DNA from: a virus
Virus record (IMG/VR): IMGVR_UViG_3300048107_000357
Span: 1-22,300 of that record
Direction: 5' to 3' (one strand)
Length of the DNA stretch: 22,300 nucleotides
Positions 4,370-19,762 of the stretch are shown piece after piece. The number at the start of each line of letters is the position of its first letter. The first letter of the stretch is position 1. The notes beneath the pieces are model-generated. The model was not told the origin of the DNA. It saw nothing but the letters and a program-made list of their open reading frames with translations, and ran no database searches. The position numbers were made by a program, and so were the translations under genes.

Positions 4370-5449
4370 TCAACCGATAGCAGGTGCGGTGAGTGCAACA
4401 GGAGTTGACTCAGCAGCAGCAAGATCGAGTGGGAAGTTGTGTGCGTTACGCTCATGCATAACTTCCATACCCAAACCTGCACGGTTCAGAACGTCTGCCC
4501 AGGTGTTCAACACACGACCCTGACCATCAAGGATGGACTGGTTGAAGTTGAAACCGTTGAGGTTGAACGCCATCGTGGACACGCCAAGGGCGGTGAACCA
4601 GATGCCAACAACAGGCCATGCAGCAAGGAAGAAGTGCAAGGAACGTGAGTTGTTGAATGAAGCGTATTGGAAGATCAAACGACCGAAGTACCCGTGGGCA
4701 GCTACGATGTTGTAGGTCTCTTCTTCTTGACCGAACTTGTAACCATAGTTCTGTGACTCTTGCTCAGTCGTCTCACGAACCAGCGAGGACGTAACAAGCG
4801 AACCGTGCATAGCACTGAACAGTGAACCACCGAAGACTCCAGCAACACCCAACATGTGGAAGGGGTGCATGAGAATGTTATGTTCGGCTTGGAAAACCAA
4901 CATGTAGTTGAAGGTTCCCGAAATGCCCAAAGGCATAGCATCGGAGAACGAACCTTGACCAAATGGGTACACCAGGAATACTGCGGACGCAGCCGCAACA
5001 GGAGCAGAGTATGCGACACAGATCCAGGGGCGCATGCCCAGACGGTAAGAAAGTTCCCACTCACGTCCCATATAGGCATAGATGCCGATAAGGAAGTGGA
5101 AGACTACCAGTTGGAAGGGACCACCGTTGTATAGCCACTCATCAAGTGAGGCAGCTTCCCAGATGGGGTAGAAGTGAAGACCAATTGCGTTGGAGGATGG
5201 GACAACTGCACCAGAGATGATGTTGTTTCCATACATGAGTGAACCAGCGACGGGTTCACGGATGCCGTCAATATCGACGGGGGGTGCTGCTACGAAAGCA
5301 ACGATGAAGCAGATGGTTGCCGCCAACAGAGTTGGGATCATCAGTACACCAAACCAACCGACATAGAGACGGTTATTGGTGGAAGTAACCCACTCGCAGA
5401 ACGAATCCCACGCGGAGGTTGTTTGTTGTTGTCTTGAAAGAGTAGACAT
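4370..5449 (-). CDS. psbA: Photosystem II reaction centre protein D1, high-light (E130) type
   Basis: Full-length D1 (359 residues), uninterrupted by the intron known in some phage psbA genes. D1 carries the water-splitting manganese cluster and the QB quinone site and is the photosystem II subunit that turns over fastest. Key residues are all present: Tyr161 (YZ), Asp170, Glu189, His190, His198 (P680), iron ligands His215 and His272, and His332, Glu333, His337, Asp342 and Ala344 for the Mn cluster and C-terminal cleavage. Residue 130 is Glu (GREWE), the state of the cyanobacterial high-light form. The tail ends TAPAIG, one residue shorter than the usual host ING ending. GC content looks higher than in the flanking glycan genes. 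There is no clear Shine-Dalgarno sequence before the ATG. Confidence 0.99.
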
Positions 5450-5594
5450 TGAAAAGGGTAAGGATAAGTGCGGGGAACACTAGTATGATATTCCTGCTGC
5501 ACCCTCAGCAACAGGTATTAGAGACGTTGTTATTCTCCCTATAGGTCTCGGTTTGAGGGGAGAGCATTACTACGTTACGCTTTGTAACGTATTT
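5450..5594 (-). promoter_or_regulatory. psbA 5' leader with three inverted repeats
   Basis: The predicted transcript start near 5594 leaves a leader of about 145 nt that contains no gene. It holds a perfect 8-bp inverted repeat at 5571-5591 (TACGTTAC, 5-nt loop, GTAACGTA) beginning within about 3 nt of the RNA start; a 6-bp repeat at 5534-5563 (TCTCCC/GGGAGA, 18-nt loop); and an 8-bp stem with one G-U pair at 5493-5515 (CCTGTTGC/GCAGCAGG, 7-nt loop). GAGAC in the loop of the second could pair with GTCTC just downstream (5521-5525), giving a pseudoknot-like arrangement. None has a T-tract, so they are not terminators. A role in mRNA stability or translation control of psbA is inference. Confidence 0.55.
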
Positions 5595-5600
5595 GTATTT

Positions 5601-5629
5601 AGTATAACATGAATCCCTAACTTTGTAAA
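5601..5629 (-). promoter_or_regulatory. psbA: psbA promoter (sigma70-type, with overlapping CTAAATA motif)
   Basis: On the minus strand TTTACA (5624-5629) and TATACT (5601-5606) are separated by exactly 17 nt, close to the sigma70 consensus used by the host polymerase. The -10 box runs into CTAAATA (5597-5603), giving TATACTAAATA; CTAAATA resembles the late-promoter element of T4-like phages. The site may therefore serve early host polymerase and the late phage-modified polymerase. The -35 box lies inside the last codons of the preceding DUF616 gene. Confidence 0.75.
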
Positions 5630-6477
5630 GGCAAAGTTGGAGATATCACATTACGTTCAATGAACTCAGAGTGATCATGTTTTGCGAAAACAAAGGGATG
5701 TAATCCCGTGATCTCTCTTAGTTCAGCAAGGATCTCACGTCGCTTCGTCCATTGGTCAGGTTTCCCTGCCTGTGGATGCCTTTTGCGACGGTATTGTTTT
5801 CCTTGCTGTCCAAATAATATACCACAACTACCTGCTCTGTGGAGATACTTCCCTCTTTTGTCTCTCCATAGTTCATGCCACCCATCTTCGATGAAAGTCA
5901 TCTGCTTATTGGTGAACTGCTTGGCAGCATCAAACGAAATCTGATCTCGGTTGGGTCCAATCTGTGCATACTTCCACCACAGATCACCAAACTCTTCATA
6001 GTTTTCTAGACGACGCCAGATAGATCCCAGCACAGGACTGCTGTACTTCTTGAAGTCATAGTTCATCCACTTCAGGACTCGGGTGATCTCTAGTTGCTGC
6101 TCCTTTGTATTCATGGAGGACATAAACCCCTCCAAGATCTCATCGTAGTATGAGTAACGATTCACATGACGGATGACTGTGAAAGAACTCTCCTCAAAGT
6201 ATCTCTTACAATTTTCTACGTATTCTTTAGTCATGATGTAGCAACCATCAATCCACACAACCTCCTCACCCTCATCAAATACTTTATGAGGATTGATCTT
6301 GACGTAGGAAGAACGGATACGAGGACAGGAATGATCACATGGAATCTCTCGGAACTCCCATGGACCTTTCCTTTCAACAGTATCATCAGCGAACATCACA
6401 TACTTGACATCCGGATCGTAGTAATTTTCATCCGGTATCTCATCGTATCCATTAGTGATACAAGAGTAGATAATCAT
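5617..6477 (-). CDS. DUF616 (TOD1/MUCI70-like) glycosyltransferase, array member 4
   Basis: A 286-residue soluble protein with the DUF616 pattern: an N-terminal strand IIYSCITNGYD (2-12), CPR at 51-53, WIDG at 75-78, SIWRR at 152-156 and NRDQISFD at 176-183. DUF616/TOD1/MUCI70 proteins are predicted GT-A type glycosyltransferases; plant members act in cell-wall polysaccharide synthesis, but donor and acceptor here are unknown. WIDG is the likely counterpart of the DxD metal/sugar-nucleotide site. It is the closest paralogue of its neighbour at 6474-7289: both share the N-terminal motif, WIDGCY, SPVL, SIWRR and the HPQAG segment. Its ATG overlaps the previous stop by 4 nt. It is the last gene of the glycan block, and its end carries the psbA promoter. 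Confidence 0.75.
   Translation of the reverse strand: MIIYSCITNGYDEIPDENYYDPDVKYVMFADDTVERKGPWEFREIPCDHSCPRIRSSYVKINPHKVFDEGEEVVWIDGCYIMTKEYVENCKRYFEESSFTVIRHVNRYSYYDEILEGFMSSMNTKEQQLEITRVLKWMNYDFKKYSSPVLGSIWRRLENYEEFGDLWWKYAQIGPNRDQISFDAAKQFTNKQMTFIEDGWHELWRDKRGKYLHRAGSCGILFGQQGKQYRRKRHPQAGKPDQWTKRREILAELREITGLHPFVFAKHDHSEFIERNVISPTLPLQS
5619..5638 (-). repeat. Inverted repeat over the psbA -35 box
   Basis: AACTTTG and CAAAGTT form a perfect 7-bp inverted repeat with a 6-nt spacer. It covers the final codons and part of the stop codon of the DUF616 gene and overlaps the psbA -35 hexamer. No T-run follows directly, so it is a poor terminator. It could be an operator for a DNA-binding protein or a weak 3' end hairpin for the glycan mRNA. 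Confidence 0.5.
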
Positions 6478-7289
6478 CGGTTCAATACGTTTGCATCAAT
6501 CATTGATTGGAAGTTGTGCTTGTAGTACAACCTTGGAATCATACGAGTGCACCGACGTATCTCCTTGAGCATTTCATCTTCACGCTTATACTGCTCCAGA
6601 TCTCCTGCTTGGGGATGCTTTCCTAAGCGATTCAACTTACCTGTTCGGTGGTCAAAATCAATACCAACCTCAGGCCAGTTGTCTTTTAGTGTATTTTTTA
6701 TTGTCTGCCAGGGTAATGCAGTCAGTTGACGTGCAGTATCAAAAGAAATCTGGTCACGGTTAGGACCAATCAAAGAATACTTCCACCACAAGTCACCAAA
6801 CTTACTGATCTCAGGAGTAATACGTCTCCAAATTGATGCCAGTACAGGACTGCAATAGTCTTTGAAGTTATAGTTCAGTTCCACCAATGCTTCCATGATC
6901 TCCACCATCTGTGCCTTGGTATTGAATGAAGACACGTAACCTTCCATCACTTCCTCAACAAAATTGAAGCGACAAGGATGAATCATATGAGTCTGATTGT
7001 TACGACTCAGGATATGTTTAGAAGTTTCTACAAACTGTTTGGTGATTACATAACACCCATCAATCCAAACCACGGACTCACCCGCATCAAAATAAAGATG
7101 AGGACAGATCTTGGGGTGAGCAGATCTCCTACGTGGACACTCCTCTTCTACTTTGATTGGATACTCTTCCCATTTTTCTGGCACATCAACAGTGCCATCT
7201 GTAAAGGCAACATACCTGACACTGGGATCATAGTAATGATCATCAGAGAATTTGTCGTATCCGTTAGTGACGCAGGTGTAAATAATCAT
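6474..7289 (-). CDS. DUF616 (TOD1/MUCI70-like) glycosyltransferase, array member 3
   Basis: A 271-residue paralogue of the following gene. It has IIYTCVTNGYD (2-12), CPRRR at 51-55, WIDG at 75-78, SIWRR at 152-156 and GPNRDQISFD at 175-184, then a tail with GKHPQAGDLEQY and a basic stretch. No signal peptide or membrane segment is present, so it should act in the cytoplasm. Family knowledge supports a glycosyltransferase; the linkage cannot be predicted. It overlaps both neighbours by ATGA. Its C-terminal KHPQAG-D-EQY segment also appears in the two copies inside the 825-residue protein, tying the array to one duplicated ancestor. Confidence 0.75.
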   Translation of the reverse strand: MIIYTCVTNGYDKFSDDHYYDPSVRYVAFTDGTVDVPEKWEEYPIKVEEECPRRRSAHPKICPHLYFDAGESVVWIDGCYVITKQFVETSKHILSRNNQTHMIHPCRFNFVEEVMEGYVSSFNTKAQMVEIMEALVELNYNFKDYCSPVLASIWRRITPEISKFGDLWWKYSLIGPNRDQISFDTARQLTALPWQTIKNTLKDNWPEVGIDFDHRTGKLNRLGKHPQAGDLEQYKREDEMLKEIRRCTRMIPRLYYKHNFQSMIDANVLNR

Positions 7290-8227
7290 ATGGGGTGTGG
7301 GAAAAAGAATGGATCATCAAAGTGGGATCTAATAGTTCGACTCGGTCTTCGTATGACACCAGTCTTTCTATTGGTATACCACAGAAGACTGTGATATGGA
7401 TTCAAAACGTTCAATTTTCTGTACTTATAATCGAAATCATCTGACATATCACCGAACAACCAGACAGGTTTATCATTTTTAGTAAGAAGAGCACAGCGAT
7501 AGTTCCTTGAGTTCTTTTCCAGACCTGTCACCCCACATAGAATGTCTACTGCCCACTCAGGATTGACATGATACTCAGCACCATACCTACCCCCCTTGTT
7601 CGCCCACCACTCACCACCATCACTGGCGTCTGACCATACATCAATCAATTCTCTAGCAGGAATAGTTTCATACTTCATACCACTCATCTGCAATGCCACT
7701 GCAAAGGACAGTTGATCCCTCCTACCACCCTTCAAGTACCAATCCCACCATAGTTGGTCGAAGTCAGTCTTACCACGCCTCCAGAGGATCGTACACAGGG
7801 GTGACAGATAGTCCTTGAAGTTATACCCTGCCTCCACAGCAGCAACCGTGAACTTATACACATCAGCGAAAGGAACAAGTCCTCTACAAATATATTCAGC
7901 ACACTCTTCAAGATACCTATGACAATGTGGATGCTCTATTACAGTAAAACTATCCTGAGAAAGAATGTAATTACTTACTTCACAAAATTTATTGTTTAGT
8001 GTATGAAGTTTAGATGCATCGATATACACATTTGGTTCATCAAATGGGCACAACATCTTCACCAGACGTGACATACGCACAGGATCAGATGAGAACCCAG
8101 GTATGTACTCTAGTTCCCAACCTTCCTGCTCCTTCACACTTCCATCATGGAAACAAACACACCTACAATCAATATCTAATTGTGGTAACTGAAAGTATCC
8201 GTTAGTAATGGATGTATAGAGGATCAT
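7286..8227 (-). CDS. Divergent DUF616-like protein with C-terminal extension, array member 2
   Basis: The first 200 residues follow the DUF616 plan (ILYTSITNGY at 2-11, CFHDGS at 25-30, LWRR at 148-151, RRDQLSF at 169-175), but the WIDG motif is altered to YIDA (68-71). A tail of about 110 residues not shared with the neighbours follows; it is rich in aromatic residues (KYRKLNVLNPYHSLLWY) and ends PFFFPHP. The lost glycine in the putative catalytic loop and the new tail suggest a changed donor, a changed acceptor or a non-catalytic partner role. It overlaps the genes on both sides by 4 nt, so it is expressed with them. Membership in the family is likely; activity is uncertain. Confidence 0.65.
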   Translation of the reverse strand: MILYTSITNGYFQLPQLDIDCRCVCFHDGSVKEQEGWELEYIPGFSSDPVRMSRLVKMLCPFDEPNVYIDASKLHTLNNKFCEVSNYILSQDSFTVIEHPHCHRYLEECAEYICRGLVPFADVYKFTVAAVEAGYNFKDYLSPLCTILWRRGKTDFDQLWWDWYLKGGRRDQLSFAVALQMSGMKYETIPARELIDVWSDASDGGEWWANKGGRYGAEYHVNPEWAVDILCGVTGLEKNSRNYRCALLTKNDKPVWLFGDMSDDFDYKYRKLNVLNPYHSLLWYTNRKTGVIRRPSRTIRSHFDDPFFFPHPI

Positions 8228-10701
8228 ATAATGTCATAGTGTTTCATGTAGAACTCATGAAACTTATATTTGATATACAAAAGTGGTTTTAGTTTGGTAA
8301 TTTTCTCTAGATCTTTTATGAACTGATCAACCTTGGTGTACTGCTTCTTGTCCCCATACTGAGGATGCTTCTTGACTCTACCAACCTTGTGCTGGAAACC
8401 CATCTTGATTCCAGAGTCAGACCTGTTCTCATAATACAGAGGTTTGGTGCCAGTCAATTGAACAGCAGCATCAAAAGGAATACTATCCCTATTGATACCT
8501 TTCTTACTCCAATTATACCACTGCTCATTGAATTCTATAGTCTCATCGTACAAATATCTCCATACGATTGAACACTGAGGACTAGAATACTTATTGAACT
8601 TATATTTTGTGGCACTCAGTGCCTCAGTGATCTCAATTCCCCCCTCATAGGGGAAGAAAGCACATGTAAATCCTTCCAACAACTCATCATAGTATGAGAA
8701 CTTACTGATGTTCCTAAGTGTGGTAAAAGGGAAGGAATACAAACTCTTCTCAACAAACTCTCGGGTATGTTTGAAGCACCCATCCACCCACACAGTGTAA
8801 GTTCCTTTCTCAAAAAACTCATGGGGGTTACACTTTGGATAGAACGCCAAGTCTCGTGGACAATCAATATCAAGATCTAATTTGATGTACTCCCATGGAC
8901 CCTTGGTAGTATCAATAGTGCCATCATGAAAACATACGTATCTTATTTCAGGATCATAGTAATTCTTATCTGGTATCACATCATGTCCATTAGTGATGCA
9001 TGTATAGATGACAACAAATCTTTTATCGACACGGACACCTTCTTGATAAGGATAAGTATTGAATGACAGTCCTAAACTACCACCAATACCATAGTATTTC
9101 ATGTAAAACTCATGGAGTTTGTACTTACAAAACAACTTTGCTTCATATCCAGTCTCTCGATCAATTTCCATAAGGAACTGATCCACCTTTTTATATTGCT
9201 CTAGGTCACCCAGTTGCTCATGCTTTTTGATTCTACCTTTCTTGTTATTGAAACCAAATTGTATACCACAGTCATCCCGGTTATCATAGAACCGGGGAGT
9301 TACTCCTGTGAACTGCATGGCAGCATCAAAAGGAATCGTATCTCGATTTAGATACCCCTCCTCATACCATTTCTTATTGAACTCGATTACCTCCGGAGTC
9401 AACTGTCTCCAGACAACAGAGCACTGTGGACTAGAATATTTTAGGAAGTCATATCCCGCCGATGCCAGATACTTGGTGTAGTTGACTGCTGTGTTGTACC
9501 TATAGAAAGCACAAGTAAATCCTTCCAACAACTCATCGTAGTATGAGAACTCTCCTCCATGACGCAGGACCGAGAAAGGAAAACATCCAAGAGATCTTTC
9601 AATAAAATCATAAGAATGATCAAAGCATCCATCAACCCATACTGTATATGAGTTAGGAGGAAAAAACTCATGAGCATTTGCTTTGACATAGAACGCCAAC
9701 TCTCTTGGATTATCAATACCAAGATGAGAAACATCAATATACTTCCAAGAACCTGACATCTTTTGACTATCAGGAACAGATAACTTCCCATCATGGAAGA
9801 TCCAATAGTTTACGTCTGGATCAAAGTAAAAACTTTGAGGGATATCATAATCATTAGTGATACATGTATAAACATTCAATTGATTATGTTTGATTCTTTC
9901 TCCAAATTCATGAGGTAAAGTGGGCACTGCTGCCTTCATCATTGCAGAAGTAATATCACTGTCCCAGATTTTTACTAATTTATTTTGAAAGTCAGTGATC
10001 TGTTTGTTGGTTGGTCGATCAATATTATAAGATTCTTCGTACTTCTTGACCCTATTAGTGTTGTCAAGACTGACCTGCATCGGTACACGCAGTGCTGTCA
10101 GTCCTGTCTCATACTCAGCAAGTGCACTAGCAATTTGATCACGGTTGACTCCTCTCCTATACCACCGTGCCCATGCTCTGTTCCACTGTCTATTCTCTTG
10201 GAAGTTATGTCTCCAGACAACGCAGTTGATTGTTTGTTTGTAATCCTTTTTAGGGTAAGGATCATAACCAGCCAGCATCCTCTCGGACATCCTGGTAATT
10301 TCTAAACTGTCAGAAAATCCTTCGGCATATAACTTATTGAACTCTTCAAGCAAACTGCGGGGGTCAGGGTGCTCTTGTAGTACAACAAAACTATGAGGAT
10401 GCCGAAAGACTTTCCTACTATATTCAACAAGATCTCGGGTTATATTATATGCTGCGTCTACCCACACAGTCAGATCAGAAGACTGTGTGAAGTATATATG
10501 CGGTTCATGCTTGATAACATATGACTTCCTAACAGGACAGTCAGGAAGTTCTACATTTAGATCATCAAGATGTACATACTCCCACGGACCTTTGGTTGTA
10601 GGAATGCTTCCATCATGGAACAAAACATACCTACAACCTTCCTCAACATATGCGTCGGGGACAGAATCATATCCGTTGGTTATGCACGTATAAAAAATCA
10701 A
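8224..10701 (-). CDS. Three-domain DUF616 protein (825 aa), array member 1
   Basis: The protein is three DUF616-like domains in one chain: domain 1 about residues 2-215, domain 2 about 276-538 and domain 3 about 563-825. Each opens with (I/V)YTCITN followed by a FHDG strand. Domains 2 and 3 are close copies: both have VWVDGCF (354-360 and 637-643), SYYDELLEGFTCAF, KYSSPQC and IPFDAA, and both end in KYK-HEFYMK. Domain 1 is more divergent, with VWVDAAY at 79-85. A TTG codon is chosen as start because the resulting MIFYTCITNGYD lines up with the ATG starts of the paralogues and gives a TTGA overlap with the previous stop. Such a chain could add several sugars in a row or act as a scaffold; this is inference. 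Confidence 0.75.
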   Translation of the reverse strand: MIFYTCITNGYDSVPDAYVEEGCRYVLFHDGSIPTTKGPWEYVHLDDLNVELPDCPVRKSYVIKHEPHIYFTQSSDLTVWVDAAYNITRDLVEYSRKVFRHPHSFVVLQEHPDPRSLLEEFNKLYAEGFSDSLEITRMSERMLAGYDPYPKKDYKQTINCVVWRHNFQENRQWNRAWARWYRRGVNRDQIASALAEYETGLTALRVPMQVSLDNTNRVKKYEESYNIDRPTNKQITDFQNKLVKIWDSDITSAMMKAAVPTLPHEFGERIKHNQLNVYTCITNDYDIPQSFYFDPDVNYWIFHDGKLSVPDSQKMSGSWKYIDVSHLGIDNPRELAFYVKANAHEFFPPNSYTVWVDGCFDHSYDFIERSLGCFPFSVLRHGGEFSYYDELLEGFTCAFYRYNTAVNYTKYLASAGYDFLKYSSPQCSVVWRQLTPEVIEFNKKWYEEGYLNRDTIPFDAAMQFTGVTPRFYDNRDDCGIQFGFNNKKGRIKKHEQLGDLEQYKKVDQFLMEIDRETGYEAKLFCKYKLHEFYMKYYGIGGSLGLSFNTYPYQEGVRVDKRFVVIYTCITNGHDVIPDKNYYDPEIRYVCFHDGTIDTTKGPWEYIKLDLDIDCPRDLAFYPKCNPHEFFEKGTYTVWVDGCFKHTREFVEKSLYSFPFTTLRNISKFSYYDELLEGFTCAFFPYEGGIEITEALSATKYKFNKYSSPQCSIVWRYLYDETIEFNEQWYNWSKKGINRDSIPFDAAVQLTGTKPLYYENRSDSGIKMGFQHKVGRVKKHPQYGDKKQYTKVDQFIKDLEKITKLKPLLYIKYKFHEFYMKHYDII
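8227..9876 (-). repeat. Tandem duplication encoding DUF616 domains 2 and 3
   Basis: The halves 9088-9876 and 8227-9015 encode homologous domains. Their DNA is still alike in places: tccttccaacaactcatc occurs at 8671 and again at 9520, an offset of 849 nt (283 codons), with tagtatgagaact following in both. A short linker that differs from the domains (residues about 539-562) separates the copies. Retained DNA identity points to a fairly recent duplication. Confidence 0.7.
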
Positions 10702-11444
10702 TTTAGTTTATCCACAGGTTGCGACTTACCCAATGCTTCACTCACTGTACGGTTTGTGACGTTACCAGGTTCACGTAAGAACCATCCAGTAGCAATGTAC
10801 TTAGATTCATTACCCGTAAGGAATGAACCTCTGTGCATGTGAGTATACGTAGCAGGCCAAAGAACAATAGTTCCTTTCTTAGGATGGAACGTTTTCTCCT
10901 GGTGATAGAAGTCAGTGCCGCCACCATTCTCAGGAGGGATATCATTCAGATAAATCATCCACGTCAGCACACGGTCACGGTAGAGGAAGTTGCCATTCTC
11001 ACAATGCCATACATGGTATCCACCACCTGGATCAGTGCGTTGTAGTTTGCAGGTCCAAGAAGAAATTGGATCACAAGAATCAACGAGACCTTTGTACTTC
11101 TGTACGTACATCTCAAATGCTTGACCAATTGCTTGGTTGACCTGAGCGGTCATCGTTGTGTCACAAACTTCAAGATAGAGTTGATGGTCCTTACGACCCA
11201 TGCCACCTTTAGGGAATTGGGATTCCCCATCATTGAAGTGGTCAATGGTAAAATCATTGTCTCCAATTTTTGTGACGGCATGCTCGGAGGATTCTCCTAC
11301 GAAATGCTTTTTGTTGTACCAGTATTCAAAAACCTCACGCAAAGAATCACAGAATTCCCAGCGTACAAAGTTCTCAAAGATACCTATGTGATCATAGAAA
11401 ACTGGTTCAGTGAAGTCAGGTTGTTTGATGATCTCTTCTGTCAT
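10698..11444 (-). CDS. 2OG-Fe(II) oxygenase (prolyl-4-hydroxylase-like)
   Basis: A 248-residue protein whose second half fits the double-stranded beta-helix of 2-oxoglutarate/Fe(II) dioxygenases: YHVWHCENG at 143-151, MIYLND at 163-168, NGGGTDFYH at 173-181, then GTIVLWPATYTHMHRGS at 191-207 and KYIATGW at 215-221. The first iron motif appears as H147-x-E149 rather than the usual HxD, the distal histidine is H202 or H204, and K215 may bind 2-oxoglutarate. Such enzymes hydroxylate proteins, lipids or small molecules using oxygen and 2-oxoglutarate. Its place between GT25 and DUF616 genes suggests a hydroxylated acceptor (for example hydroxyproline or hydroxylysine) or a modified sugar. ATGA overlap upstream and TTGA downstream. 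Confidence 0.8.
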   Translation of the reverse strand: MTEEIIKQPDFTEPVFYDHIGIFENFVRWEFCDSLREVFEYWYNKKHFVGESSEHAVTKIGDNDFTIDHFNDGESQFPKGGMGRKDHQLYLEVCDTTMTAQVNQAIGQAFEMYVQKYKGLVDSCDPISSWTCKLQRTDPGGGYHVWHCENGNFLYRDRVLTWMIYLNDIPPENGGGTDFYHQEKTFHPKKGTIVLWPATYTHMHRGSFLTGNESKYIATGWFLREPGNVTNRTVSEALGKSQPVDKLN

Positions 11445-12241
11445 TGTTTCTGTGCTTGTTCCATGTACACTGATGGTGGTATTCTACCACAATATTCGTC
11501 TAGTTCCATAATCTGATCGACAGTATGCTCCCTAGCATCTCTCTCCCAGAACTGTGCTAGTGCCTCATTACTACCCTTATGAAAGATGTCAATATGTTCT
11601 TCATGAATTGAAGAACCCATGTCCAATCTGTAATTGAATAGGGGAGTAGAGTAAGACTTACCACTGTCAAGAATCAAATCCTCTGACACTGCACGAGGTT
11701 TGATGTTCTGATCCAGTTTCCACTGATTGCCACGGAGGTGACACCTAAGGACCTTGGTTGCATGGTGCCTGCTGATTAGATAACCAGCAGCAGAGAAATC
11801 ATTGATGAACCTTTGATGTAACTTGAGAGTAATCCCATTGGGATTGATGATGGTTAGTTGCAGGCAGTCCCAGTTGATGGGCAGTCGCTTCCTAACATCC
11901 TTCCAAGTGAAAGTCCAATGCTTGACAGTGGAAAGATCAATGTCGTCCTCCATGATGAAGACTTCATCTAGGTCAGTCTCTTCGACAAAGTAACGCAGAG
12001 CATTTAGGTGAGACATTACACATGCGATCTCACCTTTGTTCATATTATGAGGTACAGAACCCTTCAGGTTCTCCTCATACTCATCACCATCAATACCACT
12101 AATGCGGTGGTTATCAGTGAGTCCCCAGTAGTCCAATTGATCTTCCATGTATTCCCGTCGTTGGGTCACACGGTCTAGATTGATCCAAAGAACTTTAGGG
12201 AACCCCTTCAGTTTGTCGATAGACTTATTCCTATCAGTCAT
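11441..12241 (-). CDS. Glycosyltransferase family 25
   Basis: The sequence matches GT25, which includes bacterial LPS galactosyltransferases and animal collagen hydroxylysine galactosyltransferases. From the chosen start, the family strand VLWINLDRVTQRREYM is at 17-32, GEIACVMSHLNALR at 70-83 and the metal-binding FIMEDDID at 95-102; SEDLIL comes later. The open frame extends upstream to 12313, but the ATG at 12241 is chosen because it places the family start correctly and overlaps the previous stop by 8 nt, as at the next junction. The protein is then 266 residues, the usual GT25 size. It lies next to a 2OG oxygenase of prolyl/lysyl-hydroxylase type, a pairing with a known parallel in collagen modification; the donor is probably a UDP-sugar. 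Confidence 0.85.
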   Translation of the reverse strand: MTDRNKSIDKLKGFPKVLWINLDRVTQRREYMEDQLDYWGLTDNHRISGIDGDEYEENLKGSVPHNMNKGEIACVMSHLNALRYFVEETDLDEVFIMEDDIDLSTVKHWTFTWKDVRKRLPINWDCLQLTIINPNGITLKLHQRFINDFSAAGYLISRHHATKVLRCHLRGNQWKLDQNIKPRAVSEDLILDSGKSYSTPLFNYRLDMGSSIHEEHIDIFHKGSNEALAQFWERDAREHTVDQIMELDEYCGRIPPSVYMEQAQKQ

Positions 12242-13196
12242 CCGTGCCAGGGCGTTTGCCATTGCGGACACCACGATACACCATGTATAGGGGCTCCTTA
12301 TAATATTCTTCAATAGCGTCCCTACTCATGTTGCCAAGTTTTTCCCACAACGCACGGTTCTCTTCGATGTGAGGGTTGTTGAACCAAGAGTTAGGAGTAC
12401 GACGGTGCTCCATATGATAGATCAAATCATTTAGACGCAGCACTTGTGAACAAAGATTGAAGCGACTATAACGTTCGTCATCTTCATATCCATAGGCAAC
12501 GAAACCTTCATTCTCACCACCAAGTCTGAGATATTCTTTGGTGTCAAAGAACTGTACGAAACCAAACTTGGCATCATATAGAGTTGCACTCTTCACAAAT
12601 GCATTGAAGTTGAAGTTGCTATTGATGAACCGAGTACATTCCTCATCAGTAACTCGTAACTGATATTGATACTCTCCACACCCATAAGGATAGACACACT
12701 TCACAGGTTCAGGAGTTGCCTCAGGATCATTCGGAGGAATCCAACCATAAAGAATGGCATTCTGCGCCAAGATATAGTTGTTCATCGGCAGCAAGACATC
12801 GCAGTCATAGTTGCAGACCACAGGGGTCTCAACCAACATCAGCATGTCGTTTATCAAACGAGTCCTATGGAAGACTTTATCATCACTCTCCTCAAAGATA
12901 TGATGAATCTTTTCCATCTTCTCAGGGGGCAATGCTTCATCAAGCATTGGCACCACACTCTTCAAGAAAATAGATTCAACATCATGTTCCTTGATAATAA
13001 TCTGCGTGTCAAAGTTACGCAGAAGATAGATTAGTGTTGTCGTGATGTTACGCATCCGATCAACACTTTCGATTCGCAAAGGAATGATGAAGGTTGTTTT
13101 AGTCAGGTCCCAGGAGTTTACCGGTTGGATCTGAAGATCCTCGTACATCCCAAGATCTTGAATTTCAACACCTTCTTGGTGGATTGTTTCAGACAT
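12234..13196 (-). CDS. GT-A fold glycosyltransferase (GT2/galactosyltransferase-like)
   Basis: A 320-residue protein with a nucleotide-sugar-binding start (TTFIIPLRIESVDR, 34-47), a DCD metal motif at 131-133 inside NYDCDVLLP, and a C-terminal acceptor segment GGENEGFVAYGYEDDERYSRF (226-246) followed by IYHMEHRR. That GGxNExFxxYGxEDxE arrangement is typical of the catalytic end of beta-1,4-galactosyltransferase and chondroitin-polymerase type enzymes, so hexose or HexNAc transfer is expected. The frame extends to 13259, but the ATG at 13196 is preferred: it overlaps the GT11 stop by 8 nt and leaves out a low-complexity TTTPLTFTALTG stretch that is only GT11 DNA read out of frame. Confidence 0.8.
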   Translation of the reverse strand: MSETIHQEGVEIQDLGMYEDLQIQPVNSWDLTKTTFIIPLRIESVDRMRNITTTLIYLLRNFDTQIIIKEHDVESIFLKSVVPMLDEALPPEKMEKIHHIFEESDDKVFHRTRLINDMLMLVETPVVCNYDCDVLLPMNNYILAQNAILYGWIPPNDPEATPEPVKCVYPYGCGEYQYQLRVTDEECTRFINSNFNFNAFVKSATLYDAKFGFVQFFDTKEYLRLGGENEGFVAYGYEDDERYSRFNLCSQVLRLNDLIYHMEHRRTPNSWFNNPHIEENRALWEKLGNMSRDAIEEYYKEPLYMVYRGVRNGKRPGTDD

Positions 13197-13977
13197 TGAT
13201 AGATTTCCAGTTAGGGCAGTAAAGGTCAGAGGTGTCGTGGTCTTTAGTATACCCGTCACCGAACCAACGGTTAGGGGCGATGATTGTCTTGTCTGAGTTT
13301 GTACTCAACCAAGACCCCCACCATGAGAATGATGAGTTAGCAATGATAAAGTCGTGACATAGACTCATCATACAGAGGTCGGCAACATTGTCGCCACCCT
13401 CAGAGATCAAGAAACGATCTTCTACAAATTGTTCGTTACACCAGGCAGGATCGTCAGAAAAAACAACGACAGTCCTGTCAGAATCAAAGTGCGAAAGGGC
13501 ACGATCATAATAGTCCTTGGTGCATGGAGGGTGGTTGTCGCAGTTAGTTATGTAGTCACCCCTCCGAACATGTAGAGCAATTGGTCGGTCAACCGAACCA
13601 ATCATTTCTTGACATGGTTCTTTGATATTATTTTTGAATTCAAAGTCCTCACGGATCTCAGATTCAATATGTTTGAACCACTTCTCGCTTTGTAGATACC
13701 CATAAACATTATGCCCATCAGGCATCTTGTCAAACAGGTTCTTATCAAAGTGAAAGTGTTCTTCCTGAACATAAGGTCCAGGACATACCCCGATGTTTGT
13801 TAGTCCAGTAAGTTTGAAACACTCAAACAGTTGATGGTCAGTCCACTCATCTTTGAAATCGCTAGGAGGAATACAAAAATCGTATCCATGCTCAGCAGCA
13901 ATACCACGTAGTCCTGCATACTGAAACATCTGATTTCCTAGACGACCATGCCGACCTAGGTGATTGAATCCAATCAT
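13189..13977 (-). CDS. Alpha-1,2-fucosyltransferase family GT11
   Basis: Clear GT11 signatures: GRHGRLGNQMFQYAGLRG at the N-terminus (8-25), the GDP-binding HVRRGDY at 136-142, VFSDDPAW at 172-179 and ANSSFSWWGSWL at 213-224. At 262 residues it is a normal bacterial length, with no membrane anchor. GT11 enzymes move fucose from GDP-fucose to galactose or similar in a 1,2 linkage. No GDP-fucose synthesis gene is in the window, but a GDP-mannose 3,5-epimerase is, whose product GDP-L-galactose is a known alternative donor for plant FUT1; the true donor is open. ATGA overlap with the GT2 gene upstream. Confidence 0.92.
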   Translation of the reverse strand: MIGFNHLGRHGRLGNQMFQYAGLRGIAAEHGYDFCIPPSDFKDEWTDHQLFECFKLTGLTNIGVCPGPYVQEEHFHFDKNLFDKMPDGHNVYGYLQSEKWFKHIESEIREDFEFKNNIKEPCQEMIGSVDRPIALHVRRGDYITNCDNHPPCTKDYYDRALSHFDSDRTVVVFSDDPAWCNEQFVEDRFLISEGGDNVADLCMMSLCHDFIIANSSFSWWGSWLSTNSDKTIIAPNRWFGDGYTKDHDTSDLYCPNWKSINV

Positions 13978-14657
13978 TTATGTTTCTCCTTCAAATATTC
14001 AATCTCTTGTGGCATAAGATCCTCAAACTTTCGTTGTGTTTGATGGGGGTGTTCTCTATTAGAAATATGATAGTGCTGAAGAACTTTTGGTTCCCCGTAG
14101 TTCTCATACAACCTATAGTACATGTCACAATCCATCAGCATGGTGAGTTCTTCATCAAAGTATTCACCACATCCATTACGGAGAGCAAGAATAGATGGAG
14201 AACTAAGGGTGTTGACACCCTCTAGCAAACGATTGTTATAGACAGGAATCTTAGGGTTGTAGTGAGTCTTACCATCATCTAAGGTATGAGCAAATCCAGT
14301 TACTGCCCACTCCACTCCTTCAGTAAAAGCAGCGTCAAGTTCAGCACATAGATTCTTAGTAAGAATCATATCATCACTGAAGATAATTTTCAAGATCTCA
14401 CCATCTGCTAAACGCATAGCGTTATTGGTGTTAGCAGAAATGTTACCTGACTTACTTGGGTTGCGAACGTAATTGATCTCAAAGAGATCATCGTACTCTT
14501 CACATGCCTGTAGAACTTTATTTGATGTGCCATGATCGGACACCCAAACATTGAAGTTCATATCACTCTGCAATGACAGACTATGAAAGATGTCAAACAA
14601 ATACTGTTGACACCTAGGGTTCTTATCATGCGTAGGGATGCAAAAACTTACTCTCAT
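13974..14657 (-). CDS. Glycosyltransferase family 2
   Basis: A 227-residue GT-A protein. It starts with VSFCIPTHDKNPRCQQYL (3-20), has a VSDHGTSN segment near 39-46 where GT2 enzymes bind the nucleotide, and carries the metal motif IFSDDMILT at 92-100. LMDCDMYYRL later corresponds to the acceptor/catalytic region. It is compact, without transmembrane segments, so it should be cytoplasmic. Donor and acceptor cannot be read from the sequence. It overlaps its neighbours by ATGA on both sides and sits between GT10 and GT11 genes. Confidence 0.85.
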   Translation of the reverse strand: MRVSFCIPTHDKNPRCQQYLFDIFHSLSLQSDMNFNVWVSDHGTSNKVLQACEEYDDLFEINYVRNPSKSGNISANTNNAMRLADGEILKIIFSDDMILTKNLCAELDAAFTEGVEWAVTGFAHTLDDGKTHYNPKIPVYNNRLLEGVNTLSSPSILALRNGCGEYFDEELTMLMDCDMYYRLYENYGEPKVLQHYHISNREHPHQTQRKFEDLMPQEIEYLKEKHK

Positions 14658-15445
14658 TTCCCTACAAACTCCTTGATTTTATTTGTAAGTCTAGGCACTA
14701 CATCGTTTTCACTATGGAAACGCTTAGCAATTTCATAGTTCTGCTCGATTGCAGGCTTTCTCCAATCATACATTTCAGTGTCCAGATGTCTTAGGATAAG
14801 TTCAAGCTCTTCCATATCATGAAATACAATCACACCATCCATATTGAACCAATCACTAAGGTTAGGACAACCATAATAAATGGGTACAGTTTTTGACGCA
14901 AAGCAATCAATAACTTTTTCAGTAAAGTAATTCTGTTGGCGAGAGTTCTCTACTGTAATATGGAACTTAGCGTTCTCAAAGAAATCATTCCTCCGTTGAT
15001 GAAAAGGAGGTGACTTATGTGCATAGTATTGCAATCCATTAGATACATCTATCTTCTTGAGCATCTCAAAGATGTCAAGACGCATGTTGTGTCCAACAGT
15101 TTGGTTCTTATTACTTGTGACAAAGGTAACATTGTTACCCTTATCCAGAATAAGATCAGAAAAATTCAACCAACTAGATCCCCACTCAAACAATTCTGCT
15201 TGGGGGTGTATGTCGATAATTTTCTGAGTGAACGTGTAGATTTTATCAAAATGATGAGCACCACGAAGTGCTCCCTCAGTCACTGTAGGAAGGATTGAAT
15301 ATGGTTCCGCTAAGAACAGAATTTTTACATCTGCTTGCGGATCATAATCAAGGTTATCAATAGAGATACTGACAGACCTACCACCAAGATCAAGATGCTT
15401 ATCTTGCCAAGGGTTCCACCAAAGAGGATAGTATTTTACTGTCAT
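14654..15445 (-). CDS. GT10 (alpha-1,3/4-fucosyltransferase-like) glycosyltransferase
   Basis: The C-terminal half shows the GT10 nucleotide-binding block: FHITVENSRQQNYFTEKV at 161-178, then ASKTVPIYYG at 183-192 and DGVIVF. In this family the E-N-S and TEK-x-x-x-A-x-x-x-x-x-P-x-Y-x-G residues bind GDP-fucose. At 263 residues it is somewhat shorter than most bacterial GT10 enzymes, with a brief N-terminal acceptor domain. It is the second fucosyltransferase-type enzyme in the block, next but one to the GT11 gene, and may use GDP-L-galactose or GDP-fucose. Coupled by ATGA on both sides. Confidence 0.85.
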   Translation of the reverse strand: MTVKYYPLWWNPWQDKHLDLGGRSVSISIDNLDYDPQADVKILFLAEPYSILPTVTEGALRGAHHFDKIYTFTQKIIDIHPQAELFEWGSSWLNFSDLILDKGNNVTFVTSNKNQTVGHNMRLDIFEMLKKIDVSNGLQYYAHKSPPFHQRRNDFFENAKFHITVENSRQQNYFTEKVIDCFASKTVPIYYGCPNLSDWFNMDGVIVFHDMEELELILRHLDTEMYDWRKPAIEQNYEIAKRFHSENDVVPRLTNKIKEFVGK

Positions 15446-16113
15446 CGTATGTCTTGAAAATGATAATGAAAACCAAAGGTCTCAATTCCTTTGTGTTCCG
15501 GGCACTCTACTTCTTTAGAGAACCTAGCGGCAACTTCCACTGGAGCAAAGACGCATCCTTGTTCCTCAAAAAGGTGCCGATTGTGGATACATATGTTTCC
15601 GTCCTCGTTATATAGTCCGGCATTCATATGCTTGTAGAAGTCTCCTTCGTTGACTTCCCAAGGCACAGTCACACGCGAGGGAACTTGTAATAACTTTCTG
15701 GAACGTAAGGAAAATCCCCCATTCCCAACCCGCTGACTCTTACCCCAGGGGTCGAGATAGGCGGTTGGATCGTCTCTCCACGGGGCACCGATGTAGTCGT
15801 ATTGTAACCACGAATTATCCCATAACCAAGGTCGAATAACAAAACCGTCAGGATGAATAAGGAGGCAATGCGAGGATTGAATATGATTGAGAAAATTATA
15901 TATGCAATAAAAATTGAAATCATTGATACTCTGGATTGGATAAGTTTTCTCATACTGTGCTTGATCACAGAGACCTTCTGGTCTTCCTTTACTGCCAAGA
16001 AATTTGACAGCACCCCATTCAATAGATTCACATGATTTATTTACCGCATAGACTGCTTCCGGTATGTCAACATCTGCTAGCATCAGCAGTGTGACTTCAG
16101 GAATCTTTAGCAC
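15442..16113 (-). CDS. DUF5672-family protein (putative glycosyltransferase)
   Basis: A 223-residue protein with DUF5672 features: VTLLMLADVDIPEAVYAV at 7-24, LIHPDGFVI at 85-93, YDYIGAPWR at 105-113, VGNGGFSLRSRKL at 129-141 and a final GFHYHF. DUF5672 proteins are found in glycan gene clusters and are thought to be GT-A-like transferases, but activity has rarely been shown. The start codon is GTG at 16113, 17 nt inside the previous gene and preceded by AGGG; the later ATG would delete the first beta-strand VTLL, so GTG is preferred. The function in this cluster is probably sugar transfer, by context. Confidence 0.75.
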   Translation of the reverse strand: MLKIPEVTLLMLADVDIPEAVYAVNKSCESIEWGAVKFLGSKGRPEGLCDQAQYEKTYPIQSINDFNFYCIYNFLNHIQSSHCLLIHPDGFVIRPWLWDNSWLQYDYIGAPWRDDPTAYLDPWGKSQRVGNGGFSLRSRKLLQVPSRVTVPWEVNEGDFYKHMNAGLYNEDGNICIHNRHLFEEQGCVFAPVEVAARFSKEVECPEHKGIETFGFHYHFQDIR

Positions 16114-17002
16114 GTTTGACTGCCCTGTTGAACACCGAGTATAAGTCTAACAGATTAGTGTCAATATTTCTAGCCTTGTCACAAAGATCTTGAGCATTCG
16201 ACAACACGGTTTTAGTGATCTTCCTAAAGTCATTTACCCATAAGACAGGATAGTCTTTATATAACTCTTGCAAGTAATCATTTTTCACCATGATTGGCAC
16301 CCGTTTTAGGTAAAGCACCTCCCAGTTTCGATGACAATCAACCGCATTGCCTTGAGGACAGATCATAAATTTATGATTCTGAATCTCTCTCAGGTAGGTC
16401 TCATAGTTTACTGCTTCTCCGACCGTCGCGTAGGATCTTTTACTAAAAATCTCACGGATGTTGCCACGTGCACTGATGTTAGTGTGCTCTGCATGATTGA
16501 TGTAGAGTAATTTTTTAGGTTTAGGATCTTTCTCCATAGCAACGTGGAGAATACTTTGACGTTCATCATTGGCACTCAACTTCCTACCCACACCATAAGG
16601 AAATGGATATAGTTTATCTTTGAACCCCACTGCATTTGCAGCAAAAATCCCCAACACATTGTCGGGGATATCAATATCAGAATTGATAGGAGTGTCTTCG
16701 TTATTACAAAAAATTATAAATTTTTTCTGAGGATAACAAGCACATAGTTTCATTAGATCATTACGTTTCTGTAGACCATTGATCCACACTTGATCTTTTT
16801 TATTACCGCACTTGATTTGTCTGTGATACAATCTAATGTTATCAATGAATAGTTTGATAACTTCTTTATCACATAAAAAATCAGTGTTAGATGAGTTGGC
16901 ATCATTCATAAAGGCACCGTAGACTCCTCCTACCATGCCTGCCTGATCACCAAAACTATAGTCACAAAGATCTGCAACCGCTGGTCCCGAAATCAGCTTC
17001 AT
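16097..17002 (-). CDS. Exostosin-like (GT47-type) glycosyltransferase
   Basis: A 301-residue protein. Its C-terminal part carries the exostosin-like pattern YLREIQNHKFMICPQGNAVD (203-222), then CHRNWEVLYLKRVPIMVK (223-240) and YPVLWVNDF (251-259). In GT47-related proteins this region binds the nucleotide sugar. The N-terminal half is less clear, with KFIIFCNNED near 94-103. No anchor or signal is seen. Eukaryotic exostosins build heparan sulfate and xylans; phage and bacterial relatives have no fixed role. Coupled by ATGA to the GT17 gene upstream. The family call is moderate; a GT-B-type transferase of some kind is more certain. Confidence 0.65.
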   Translation of the reverse strand: MKLISGPAVADLCDYSFGDQAGMVGGVYGAFMNDANSSNTDFLCDKEVIKLFIDNIRLYHRQIKCGNKKDQVWINGLQKRNDLMKLCACYPQKKFIIFCNNEDTPINSDIDIPDNVLGIFAANAVGFKDKLYPFPYGVGRKLSANDERQSILHVAMEKDPKPKKLLYINHAEHTNISARGNIREIFSKRSYATVGEAVNYETYLREIQNHKFMICPQGNAVDCHRNWEVLYLKRVPIMVKNDYLQELYKDYPVLWVNDFRKITKTVLSNAQDLCDKARNIDTNLLDLYSVFNRAVKRAKDS

Positions 17003-17844
17003 ACTTTCACAAACTTCTTCAGTTTACGATTCTTCTGTGCCCTCACATATGAAGGGAAGGTGTCGTCGATCTCTACAGTAGTTGGTTGGTAAAGATAACT
17101 ACGACCATAAGGATCTAGATTATGCTTGATCCTATCCTCCATACTAGACCTAAACTCTTCTGTATTATTTTCCTGATGCTCATAAGCATCCATCTTCTGT
17201 CGTACCGTATCTGCATCACCAAAGAAACTCCAATGCCATGAGGCATTAGCAATCTTGTATGCCTGATGATGTGACTGACGGAGTTTGTCAACACTCATTG
17301 TCTTCAGTGTTTTGAAATCACACACTCTGGTTCCCATCCACTGGTCCTCACATTTGACGTTGAGGTAGTAGTAATAAAGGGGACCAGTAAGAACGTAATG
17401 ATTATTAGGATCAAACCAGTCATCAATACATTTCAGTGCTTCAGGGTTGGCAATTTCATCAGCATCACTGGTAAGAATAATGTCATCATCCTTTGCCTTA
17501 CCTAGCAGAGCATAGATTGCACTGTCCTTATGGAAGCATGCACGTTGGTACGGTAGTGGCAGTTTATAGATATCATCTTCCATCATGCTCCGGTGATAAG
17601 GAACATTCTCCCAGAATTTTTCTAATGTCTGATTATCGTCAATCGTCTCATGATAGATGATCTTGTCTTCCCACTTCTTGAACCGCTTACGGTTCTCTGA
17701 GAAGTACATAGGTTTTTGGTTACCTGTGAATGTAATATTAGATTCATTGATAACAAAATAATCTACTTCGTTACCAAGAATATTCATTCTCATTTCAAGT
17801 AAGTCCAGTTCATTATAGAACGTGAACACATCATAGACTGCCAT
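16999..17844 (-). CDS. GT17 (beta-1,4-N-acetylglucosaminyltransferase-like)
   Basis: Strong match to GT17. It starts VYDVFTFYNELDLLEMRMNI (3-22) with VDYFVINESNITFTG at 27-41 and KPMYFSEN at 44-51. The metal-binding motif is TSDADEI at 125-131, followed by the WHWSFFG segment. In animals GT17 (MGAT3) adds bisecting GlcNAc to N-glycans; bacterial and viral members have unknown acceptors. The length (281) is normal for prokaryotic members. Its ATG overlaps the preceding 2OG oxygenase by 14 nt and its end overlaps the exostosin-like gene by 4 nt. Confidence 0.88.
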   Translation of the reverse strand: MAVYDVFTFYNELDLLEMRMNILGNEVDYFVINESNITFTGNQKPMYFSENRKRFKKWEDKIIYHETIDDNQTLEKFWENVPYHRSMMEDDIYKLPLPYQRACFHKDSAIYALLGKAKDDDIILTSDADEIANPEALKCIDDWFDPNNHYVLTGPLYYYYLNVKCEDQWMGTRVCDFKTLKTMSVDKLRQSHHQAYKIANASWHWSFFGDADTVRQKMDAYEHQENNTEEFRSSMEDRIKHNLDPYGRSYLYQPTTVEIDDTFPSYVRAQKNRKLKKFVKV

Positions 17845-18373
17845 AATTTATGTTCAAAGAAAAGCGTACGTTAGAGGAGGGAGAAGAACTGGAGTGGAGT
17901 GTCCTACCATCGAACACTATTATTTTACCACGTTTAGGTTCCTCTGTATGTATCACATCACCAGATGAATCAAAAAAATATGTGTCACCATCAGAATCAT
18001 TAGGATAATAGAGTGCGACTACATGTGGACGGTCGTCATCAACGTGAGGATTGTGAGGGACATCCACAGCATCAGGTCTGGGATATTGCAGGGTCATATG
18101 TGCCCTGAACATCTTCTTGTCTGGTAAGTTGATTGCTTTACCAATCTCATCCCACGGAAACTTATAAAAAAAGTCAGACGTTGTGCCCTTGACGTGCAAT
18201 AACGTATGACTGAAGTAGGGATTCATTTTTTTTCTCAAGGGATGGTCTACGTTGCCGTATGCACAGTCCTTGAAAAAATAGTAGGGCATCTCATGACACA
18301 GATTCTCAATCAGTTTTTGATGAGTAACCTTGAGTCTATACCTTGTAACTAAAGAGGAACTCTCGTTGTTCAT
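17831..18373 (-). CDS. 2OG-Fe(II) oxygenase-like protein, second copy type
   Basis: A 180-residue protein that keeps the full facial triad: HNPHVDDDRPH with H110 and D112 (HxD), then RGKIIVFDGRTLHSS with distal H160, and R170 (in NVRFSLNINY) for 2-oxoglutarate. The core LYYPNDSDGDTYFF fits the jelly-roll strands. It is not closely related to the oxygenase at 10698-11444 in length or motif spacing. The start ATG lies 38 nt inside the previous gene; AGGAG is 15 nt upstream and no other ATG occurs before residue 29, so this start is kept. It probably hydroxylates a sugar, lipid or peptide in the same glycan pathway; the substrate is unknown. Confidence 0.75.
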   Translation of the reverse strand: MNNESSSLVTRYRLKVTHQKLIENLCHEMPYYFFKDCAYGNVDHPLRKKMNPYFSHTLLHVKGTTSDFFYKFPWDEIGKAINLPDKKMFRAHMTLQYPRPDAVDVPHNPHVDDDRPHVVALYYPNDSDGDTYFFDSSGDVIHTEEPKRGKIIVFDGRTLHSSSSPSSNVRFSLNINYGSL

Positions 18374-19109
18374 TAGTGTTCGCCCACTCTCCTGTCTTGA
18401 TATAGTCTGATAGGACCATCATATTGATGACTACATCCGTATTATAAAGCATTTTATAATTTAGATGTTCACCAATACACAAGTCTGTGCAATAAAGATT
18501 AGTAATTTTATCACTACAAAGTGCTGCAGCAATACCAAACGTCCCTACTCCAGACGTAGCGACATGTTTTGCTGCCATTAGCGTAGCAAAATCTTCCTCA
18601 ACGCTTTTAGATTGGACCGTAACCTTAGGATTCCACCTGAGTTCTTCAACGATTGGATTGTGTCGGTCAGGTTCAGTGACGACAATTGCCTTCTCAAAGT
18701 TCTCAAGTAGTGCACCATAAAAACAGTAAGGATTAGGGACATATTGACCAGGATTATCAACCCCCCGGTCAAAGACATCTCCACTACGAATATGGATAAC
18801 GAGGCAATCAGGATCCACCTCCACAGGTGGGAGGTCAAGACGCGGTCTGATATATGTTTTACAAAACGATCGCATCTCGGTATAGACTTTACCGATTTCG
18901 AGCGGGACTTCTTTGAATGGTCCATCATAATAAAAAAATTTACTAAACCCAGACCGTCTAGTGTCACCAAACTTTTCAGTAAAAGTAGAAATTATCTCGT
19001 GCTCTAGGGGTTGGATAAACTCGGTGCTGTATGCCTGAGCACACATCAATCCAACAGCACATTGTTGAATGTTGTTACCAAGTCTACCATACCAATGAGA
19101 TAGTTTCAT
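18336..19109 (-). CDS. Fucosyltransferase-fold protein (GT11/NodZ-like)
   Basis: The N-terminus YGRLGNNIQQCAVGL (7-21) and the central VIHIRSGDVF (104-113) correspond to the GRLGNQ and HxRxGD motifs of GT11/GT23-type enzymes that bind GDP-sugars. KHVATSGVGTFGIAAAL (181-197) corresponds to the later SSFS/GxGTFG block. It differs from the clear GT11 at 13189-13977, so it is a distinct family member rather than a duplicate. At 257 residues it is normal in length. Donor probably a GDP-linked sugar. ATGA overlap with the FkbM gene upstream and a 38-nt overlap downstream. Confidence 0.75.
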   Translation of the reverse strand: MKLSHWYGRLGNNIQQCAVGLMCAQAYSTEFIQPLEHEIISTFTEKFGDTRRSGFSKFFYYDGPFKEVPLEIGKVYTEMRSFCKTYIRPRLDLPPVEVDPDCLVIHIRSGDVFDRGVDNPGQYVPNPYCFYGALLENFEKAIVVTEPDRHNPIVEELRWNPKVTVQSKSVEEDFATLMAAKHVATSGVGTFGIAAALCSDKITNLYCTDLCIGEHLNYKMLYNTDVVINMMVLSDYIKTGEWANTNEQREFLFSYKV

Positions 19110-19762
19110 ACAAAAATGTTTCGTGCTTCTGATCTAACACACGCAAAGGGTTTCCAAACTGATTCTTTTACAACAGTAGGATCAACCCACCAATCTTCAT
19201 AAGAATTGCCACCATTACAAACACAAGCACATACCAGTTGGTAACCAAGATCCTCTAAGAACTTACGTGAATGATCACGGATGGTGTCACCGTCCTTGTA
19301 CGAGTCATGTTCAAAAGTGATGACGCTGGCACGGAATTCATCATGAGGGAATGCTTTGAGTGCATTGAACGTCACCTCAGGAGGTTCACAGTCAACAGAG
19401 AAGTAATCAACACGACCCTGCCACTTCTCTTTAGCGATTGCTTCGGAGTAATCAAACTTAGTGGCATCTGCTTCATAGCAGTGGTTTTGCCGTGCCATGT
19501 CTCCGTTGAAAACCTCACACATTGAACGCTCAATCTCTACAGAGAAACCACGCCAACCAAATACGGTCTCAAGTAGGAAAGTATTACTCAAAGATTGAGG
19601 ATGGTTAGCACCCACCTCAACATACTTACCATTCTTTTTTCCATTCAGCATAGTTAGGACAAACAAATCCTGGTATGCTTGAGAGAAATTTTGGAATACT
19701 TTGGTATGCCCCGTAAAAGTATGCTTCAGGGTATCGCGTTCATAGTTATACGTAGTGTTCAT
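19106..19762 (-). CDS. FkbM-family methyltransferase
   Basis: A 218-residue protein with the FkbM start FSQAYQDLFVLTML (26-39) and the S-adenosylmethionine-binding motif KYVEVGANHP (46-55), then WRGFSVEIE (70-78) and DYFSVDCEPPE, where acidic residues bind the cofactor. FkbM enzymes O-methylate sugars or other hydroxyls; in polysaccharide clusters they often cap or decorate glycans. Its position between the sugar-nucleotide enzymes and the transferases fits sugar O-methylation. ATGA overlaps on both sides. Confidence 0.88.
   Translation of the reverse strand: MNTTYNYERDTLKHTFTGHTKVFQNFSQAYQDLFVLTMLNGKKNGKYVEVGANHPQSLSNTFLLETVFGWRGFSVEIERSMCEVFNGDMARQNHCYEADATKFDYSEAIAKEKWQGRVDYFSVDCEPPEVTFNALKAFPHDEFRASVITFEHDSYKDGDTIRDHSRKFLEDLGYQLVCACVCNGGNSYEDWWVDPTVVKESVWKPFACVRSEARNIFV

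Follow-up and report, generated by a model that had tools for sequence, protein, structure and literature searches.

The PhotoRC-II RNA (RF01717), described by Weinberg et al. 2010 (PMC2864571), lies upstream of psbA in marine cyanophages, and its Rfam consensus consists of two hairpins. Rivas 2020 (PMC7657543) lists RF01717 among the families whose annotated structure lacks some covarying pairs, which its main text does not specify, and the pseudoknot described below may already be on record there. PhotoRC-I (RF01716), which is psbA-associated in the hosts' group, is a separate family of 44 positions. A literature search found no measured binding partner, transcript end or psbA effect for any PhotoRC-II RNA.

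Other leaders offer points of comparison. In cyanophage S-PM2, psbA is the sole gene differentially expressed by light and its 5'-UTR carries sigma-70 and gp55 motifs together with a 36-bp inverted repeat, according to the accessible part of Puxty et al. 2018 (PMC5931967), in which no link to PhotoRC-II was found. The late promoter published for S-PM2 reads NATAAATA (PMC2984593). In cyanobacteria, RNase E control of psbA 5'-UTRs is documented in Synechocystis (PMC10989914). In the T4 gene 32 operator, a pseudoknot in the leader is where gp32 nucleates (PMC535899).

A viral psbA leader of the PhotoRC-II family

The window, meaning the whole stretch of DNA analysed, is 22,300 bases of an uncultured viral contig whose closest matches are cyanophages. 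Its psbA protein matched 512 phage records at 80-99% identity by tblastn. The leader runs on the minus strand from about 5594 to 5450, between the end of a glycan-related gene (5617) and the start of psbA (5449). Upstream of psbA, window positions 5617-22160 hold a large island of glycan-modification genes: Pfam identified TOD1/MUCI70-like, GT25, GT11, GT10, GT17 and 2OG-Fe(II) oxygenase families, and epimerase- and aminotransferase-like ORFs were named by reading.

RF01717 was the sole Rfam match in the whole window and covered the complete model (Table 1); PhotoRC-I was not found in the same scan. The two hairpins with their conserved loop and linker sequence (ACCGAGACC, CGUCUCUCAUA, AGGGU) are present. 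This whole-model agreement in sequence and structure, upstream of psbA and in a marine cyanophage setting, places the leader in PhotoRC-II, a known cis-regulatory family. The Rfam match holds only the 3' arm of the 5'-terminal hairpin (P0), and a third downstream hairpin (P3) lies outside the Rfam model pairs. To the two-hairpin consensus the comparative analysis adds three supported parts, namely the pseudoknot, P0 and P3, and it identifies P0 with the S-PM2 hairpin.

Table 1. Features of the psbA locus in the window
Feature	Position	Strand	Basis
Promoter: -35 TTTACA (5629-5624), 17-nt spacer, -10 TATACT (5606-5601)	5596..5629	-	10/12 sigma-70 matches
P0, 5'-terminal hairpin, TACGTTAC-AAAGC-GTAACGTA, 8 bp	5571..5591	-	Fold and conservation
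Rfam RF01717 PhotoRC-II match, model positions 1-96 of 96	5480..5577	-	65.3 bits, gathering score 39
P1, 6-bp hairpin, arms 5563-5558 and 5539-5534	5534..5563	-	Fold and covariation
Pseudoknot helix, GAGAC 5549-5545 (P1 loop) with GTCTC 5525-5521	5521..5549	-	Comparison
P2, 8-bp hairpin, arms 5515-5508 and 5500-5493, loop TGAGGGT, conserved AGGGU (5505-5501)	5493..5515	-	Fold and covariation
P3, 5-bp hairpin, arms 5481-5477 and 5471-5467, loop TCCCC, conserved CCC (5475-5473)	5467..5481	-	Fold and covariation
Unpaired pyrimidine-rich stretch (17 nt) ahead of the start codon, without Shine-Dalgarno	5450..5466	-	Sequence and predicted fold
psbA, photosystem II D1 protein, 359 aa, uninterrupted	4370..5449	-	ORF and tblastn

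Promoter, predicted RNA 5' end and start region

A T4-late-like sequence, ACTAAATA (5603-5596), overlaps the sigma-70 promoter. From the usual spacings, RNA is predicted to start at about 5594-5590, with the sigma-70 start near 5594 and the T4-type late start near 5590; P0 would thus stand at the 5' end of the RNA. The first-pass annotation had placed one inverted repeat at the very 5' end, which agrees with a predicted start at the base of P0, and as far as the sequence allows the start is not predicted any closer to the gene. The arrangement is common among relatives: TATNATAAATA is matched at a minimum of 9 of 11 positions in 193 of 210 related leaders, 190 of which also carry TTGACA at 5 or more of 6 positions. 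Among psbA loci found by protein similarity and with enough upstream sequence, the promoter is present at 44 of 51 with the element versus 7 of 45 without it, the clearest of the latter seven being an uncultured phage contig, L043.

The stretch immediately ahead of psbA reads TATCCTTACCCTTTTCA (5466-5450). As had been proposed, psbA has no clear Shine-Dalgarno sequence: none was seen near the ATG at 5449, and SD-like motifs are likewise absent from all 161 related leaders inspected. No terminator-like site was seen on the minus strand between 5600 and 5449. An upstream reading frame was considered and rejected; the window has an ATG at 5567-5565, at a position that is not conserved (T is the commonest letter in columns 5566, with 57%, and 5565, with 41%). 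Many relatives (L015, L014 and similar), not including the window, have an AUG in the 3' arm of P3 (CCCTGATGG), shortly before psbA begins.

Predicted fold and conserved hairpins

The predicted fold of positions 5590-5450 contains P0, P1, P2 and P3. The three inverted repeats recorded by the first-pass annotation were all found where claimed, on the minus strand, but the fold has four hairpins rather than three. Taken alone, the window leader is structured weakly above chance (fold z = -2.03, with 6 of 200 shuffles as good). A hairpin whose loop perfectly matches a downstream 5-mer also arose in 285 of 500 leader shuffles, so that the single sequence could not establish a pseudoknot and comparison has to decide. 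With relatives included, the structure stands decisively above chance, all helices including the pseudoknot covary, and the earlier observation of a structured leader is confirmed.

Relatives were collected from psbA protein searches of viral contigs and from DNA patterns based on P2; a first, loose DNA pattern gave many chance matches. The collection holds 210 leaders with the element, of which 169 are non-redundant at a 92% filter, still including two chance matches (L377 and L449). A covariance model was built from 31 leaders with the pairs of P1, P2 and P3 and without those of the pseudoknot, and 102 matches from 100 sources were aligned to it. The alignment is therefore not fitted to the pseudoknot, though conserved sequence there still guides it. 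For P1, P2 and P3, which were in the model, covariation counts lean towards the structure; the pair types are numerous.

Within this alignment, P1 is paired in 88% of cells with double changes at all 6 modelled pairs, and it occurs with several unrelated stem sequences. P2 and P3 covary strongly, and P3, 17 nt before the start codon, has double changes at all 5 of its modelled pairs. P0 varies in sequence and length among relatives, and its ability to fold is retained: across 152 leaders the P0 stretch has a mean z of -2.59 and reaches -3 kcal/mol or better in 95%, and its arms pair with their own partner at -10.6 versus -6.6 kcal/mol with permuted partners (n=147). In the stems, G-U cells outnumber A-C cells by 126 to 61 overall (63:21 in P2, 22:5 in P3), with an excess in all four helices, which favours an RNA read from the minus strand.

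The unpaired nucleotides behave differently from the stems, which drift while the unpaired blocks stay nearly invariant. Conserved at 97-100% are the ACC before the pseudoknot strand (5552-5550, in the P1 loop), one A before the pseudoknot partner, U.AUA after that partner, the AUA that follows P2, and the loop sequences AGGGU (P2) and CCC (P3). This combination fits a predicted binding surface better than simple armour.

Covariation of the pseudoknot

The first-pass annotation had suggested an H-type pseudoknot between GAGAC and GTCTC and a covariation check across cyanophage psbA leaders. That check bears the proposal out. In the 102 aligned leaders, 99.8% of pseudoknot cells are paired and compensatory changes occur at 4 of the 5 pairs. 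There are 37 doubly changed cells, a count reached in none of 500 shuffles, and pairing falls to 27-75% when the partner is slid out of register. Eight intact haplotypes are found: GAGAC/GTCTC (68 leaders), AAGAC/GTCTT (14), AGGAC/GTCCT and GAGGC/GCCTC (4 each), GAGAT/ATCTC (3), and GGGGC/GCCCC, GGGAT/ATCCC and GGGAC/GTCTC (2 each, the last with one G-U pair). One further leader, GAGAC/GTCTT, stays paired only through G-U, and two leaders could not be aligned at the pseudoknot.

On the tree, same-branch double substitutions number 10, 5, 4 and 2 at the four varying pairs (~21), and a per-pair tree null gave P values of <0.001, 0.008, 0.010 and 0.011; this null assumes a single leader history, which the visible exchange of modules violates. 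When all pairs were analysed for covariation against an APC tree null, the first pseudoknot pair reached E = 0.2, a consequence of misregistered P1 sequence types and of modules that appear to recombine; a test of pre-stated pairs on the model-based alignment was used in its place. RNAalifold picked the pseudoknot helix unprompted from the seed alignment. The DNA patterns did not create the compensatory variants, since these also occur in leaders retrieved purely by protein similarity (L002, L007, L020, L049, L052, L053 and L054). Comparison across the family thus shows that the RNA folds into P0, P1, the H-type pseudoknot, P2 and P3.

Distribution and natural variants

In a search of 22 long or special records, 18 carried exactly one copy of the element, in phage genomes or contigs of at least 122 kb. 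Of the remainder, the fragment L074 has one copy, L043 has none, and two contigs have two copies each, one of each pair being truncated before P3 (L406:4637-5977 and L194:4319-5811). In L406, an HNH-endonuclease-like ORF (4848-5345, minus strand) lies between the two copies upstream of psbA, and a GIY-YIG-like ORF follows psbA (both named by reading), which suggests that a homing endonuclease has inserted at the leader. The full leader is carried by named phages such as S-SSM4, P-TIM40, P-RSM1, Syn19 and S-SKS1.

Among picocyanobacteria, only 1 of 400 Cyanobiaceae genomes gave a PhotoRC-II match. This candidate for presence in hosts was rejected, as the match lies on a 189-kb T4-like phage contig with Ssb-like and PhoH-like proteins (named by reading). 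By this distribution PhotoRC-II is a phage-only family. PhotoRC-I scored above the cut-off in 19 of 201 picocyanobacterial genomes.

Natural variants dissect the leader. The S-PM2 leader shares with the window the combined sigma-70/gp55 promoter and the 5' hairpin, and its 36-bp inverted repeat is, by comparison, the P0 element; unlike the window, it has nothing resembling P1, the pseudoknot, P2 or P3. The light response of S-PM2 therefore cannot require the PhotoRC-II core, and the hairpin common to both leaders is P0. L043 resembles S-PM2, with only the promoter and P0, about 100 nt upstream of psbA. The converse is seen in L074 (L074:1424-1490), a natural deletion variant and minimal form that has P1 and the pseudoknot without P2 and P3. 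Since P0 alone survives in S-PM2 and L043, and L074 has lost P2 and P3 while retaining P1 and the pseudoknot, no single part beyond the promoter is indispensable.

In two loci, L577 and L550, 188 nt that may be a group I intron interrupt the psbA coding sequence near residue 287, and a full PhotoRC-II leader is present. A psbA intron as an alternative to PhotoRC-II was rejected, as both split loci also carry the leader. S-PM2 has an intron and lacks the PhotoRC-II core.

Proposed function and alternatives

The best explanation of these data, to which we give an even chance of being correct in its entirety, is that the window encodes the psbA transcript of a T4-like cyanophage, made from a combined early and late promoter, whose leader is a PhotoRC-II RNA in which P0 shields the 5' end and the pseudoknot domain presents a site for a putative trans-acting factor. 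P0 would slow 5'-end-dependent decay of the RNase E type and would most likely act as an mRNA 5'-end stabiliser; the RNA stabiliser suggested by the first-pass annotation is plausible for this part. The P1-pseudoknot-P2-P3 domain would present a binding site made of ACC, AGGGU, CCC and the two AUA blocks to the putative factor, more probably a protein than a metabolite. Once bound, the factor could set either ribosome access to the SD-less, unstructured start region or decay, and the outcome would be control of D1 synthesis and of psbA mRNA life during infection. A light- or host-factor-responsive role, which the first-pass annotation also raised, would be as conjectural as the trans-factor. 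By analogy, the leader may work like the T4 gene 32 operator, with which it shares the layout of a T4-type phage leader carrying a pseudoknot 5' of an unstructured ribosome-binding region. It is not a member of that class, as it has no UUAAA/UAAA repeats before the ATG and its gene is psbA.

A purely passive leader, whose hairpins merely protect the mRNA 5' region from nucleases with no trans-factor involved, is rather unlikely, yet it accounts well for P0, which stands at the predicted 5' end, is the sole part kept in S-PM2 and L043, and has a precedent in the RNase E control of Synechocystis psbA 5'-UTRs (PMC10989914). What it does not call for are the invariant loops (ACC, AGGGU, CCC and AUA) and the conserved pseudoknot, which passive stems do not require. 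Those same features, a compact 5'-UTR pseudoknot with invariant unpaired nucleotides, would suit a ligand-sensing riboswitch whose pseudoknot would serve as the aptamer for a metabolite and alter how ribosomes reach the start codon. Riboswitch folds are commonly H-type pseudoknots. This reading is nonetheless improbable: the minus strand of the leader lacks a terminator-like expression platform, there is no Shine-Dalgarno sequence for a switch to hide (161 of 161 leaders), and the element accompanies a single gene in a single group of phages, a narrower range than most riboswitches have. Weinberg et al. (PMC2864571) graded PhotoRC-II 'n' (probably not) in this respect.

The absence of a local Shine-Dalgarno sequence in those 161 leaders and the SD-like character of the P2 loop raise the idea of remote ribosome loading, in which AGGGU/GGAGGG would be a distant Shine-Dalgarno sequence brought near by P3, perhaps through kissing of the P2 and P3 loops. 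These loops pair over 7 bases in three leaders, but L074 lacks both P2 and P3, and we regard the idea as very improbable. Kissing was itself rejected, loop complementarity being 3.79 versus 3.76 for permuted partners (P = 0.12), with no excess. Finally, because the region adjoins the promoter, the inverted repeats could be protein-binding sites or cruciforms in DNA rather than RNA structure. They lie downstream of the predicted start, however, the stems contain more G-U than A-C cells when read on the minus strand, and the crossing covariation of the pseudoknot has no DNA-dyad counterpart, which together leave a DNA-level element with scarcely any likelihood.

Implications for the PhotoRC-II family

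The binding-site reading of the PhotoRC-II leader can be taken further, as a tentative possibility. PhotoRC-II would then be a five-part RNA whose pseudoknot and flanking hairpins are absent from the reference model, and whose pseudoknot core might be a trans-factor-dependent switch of translation or decay, evolved by cyanophages to govern a photosynthesis gene they had captured, in place of the host's leader control.

The reference structure of PhotoRC-II should be revised. Among the auxiliary metabolic genes of ocean viruses, psbA is the best studied. A defined pseudoknot with natural compensatory variants, natural deletions (L074, L043 and S-PM2) and a predicted 5' end make the control of psbA directly testable.
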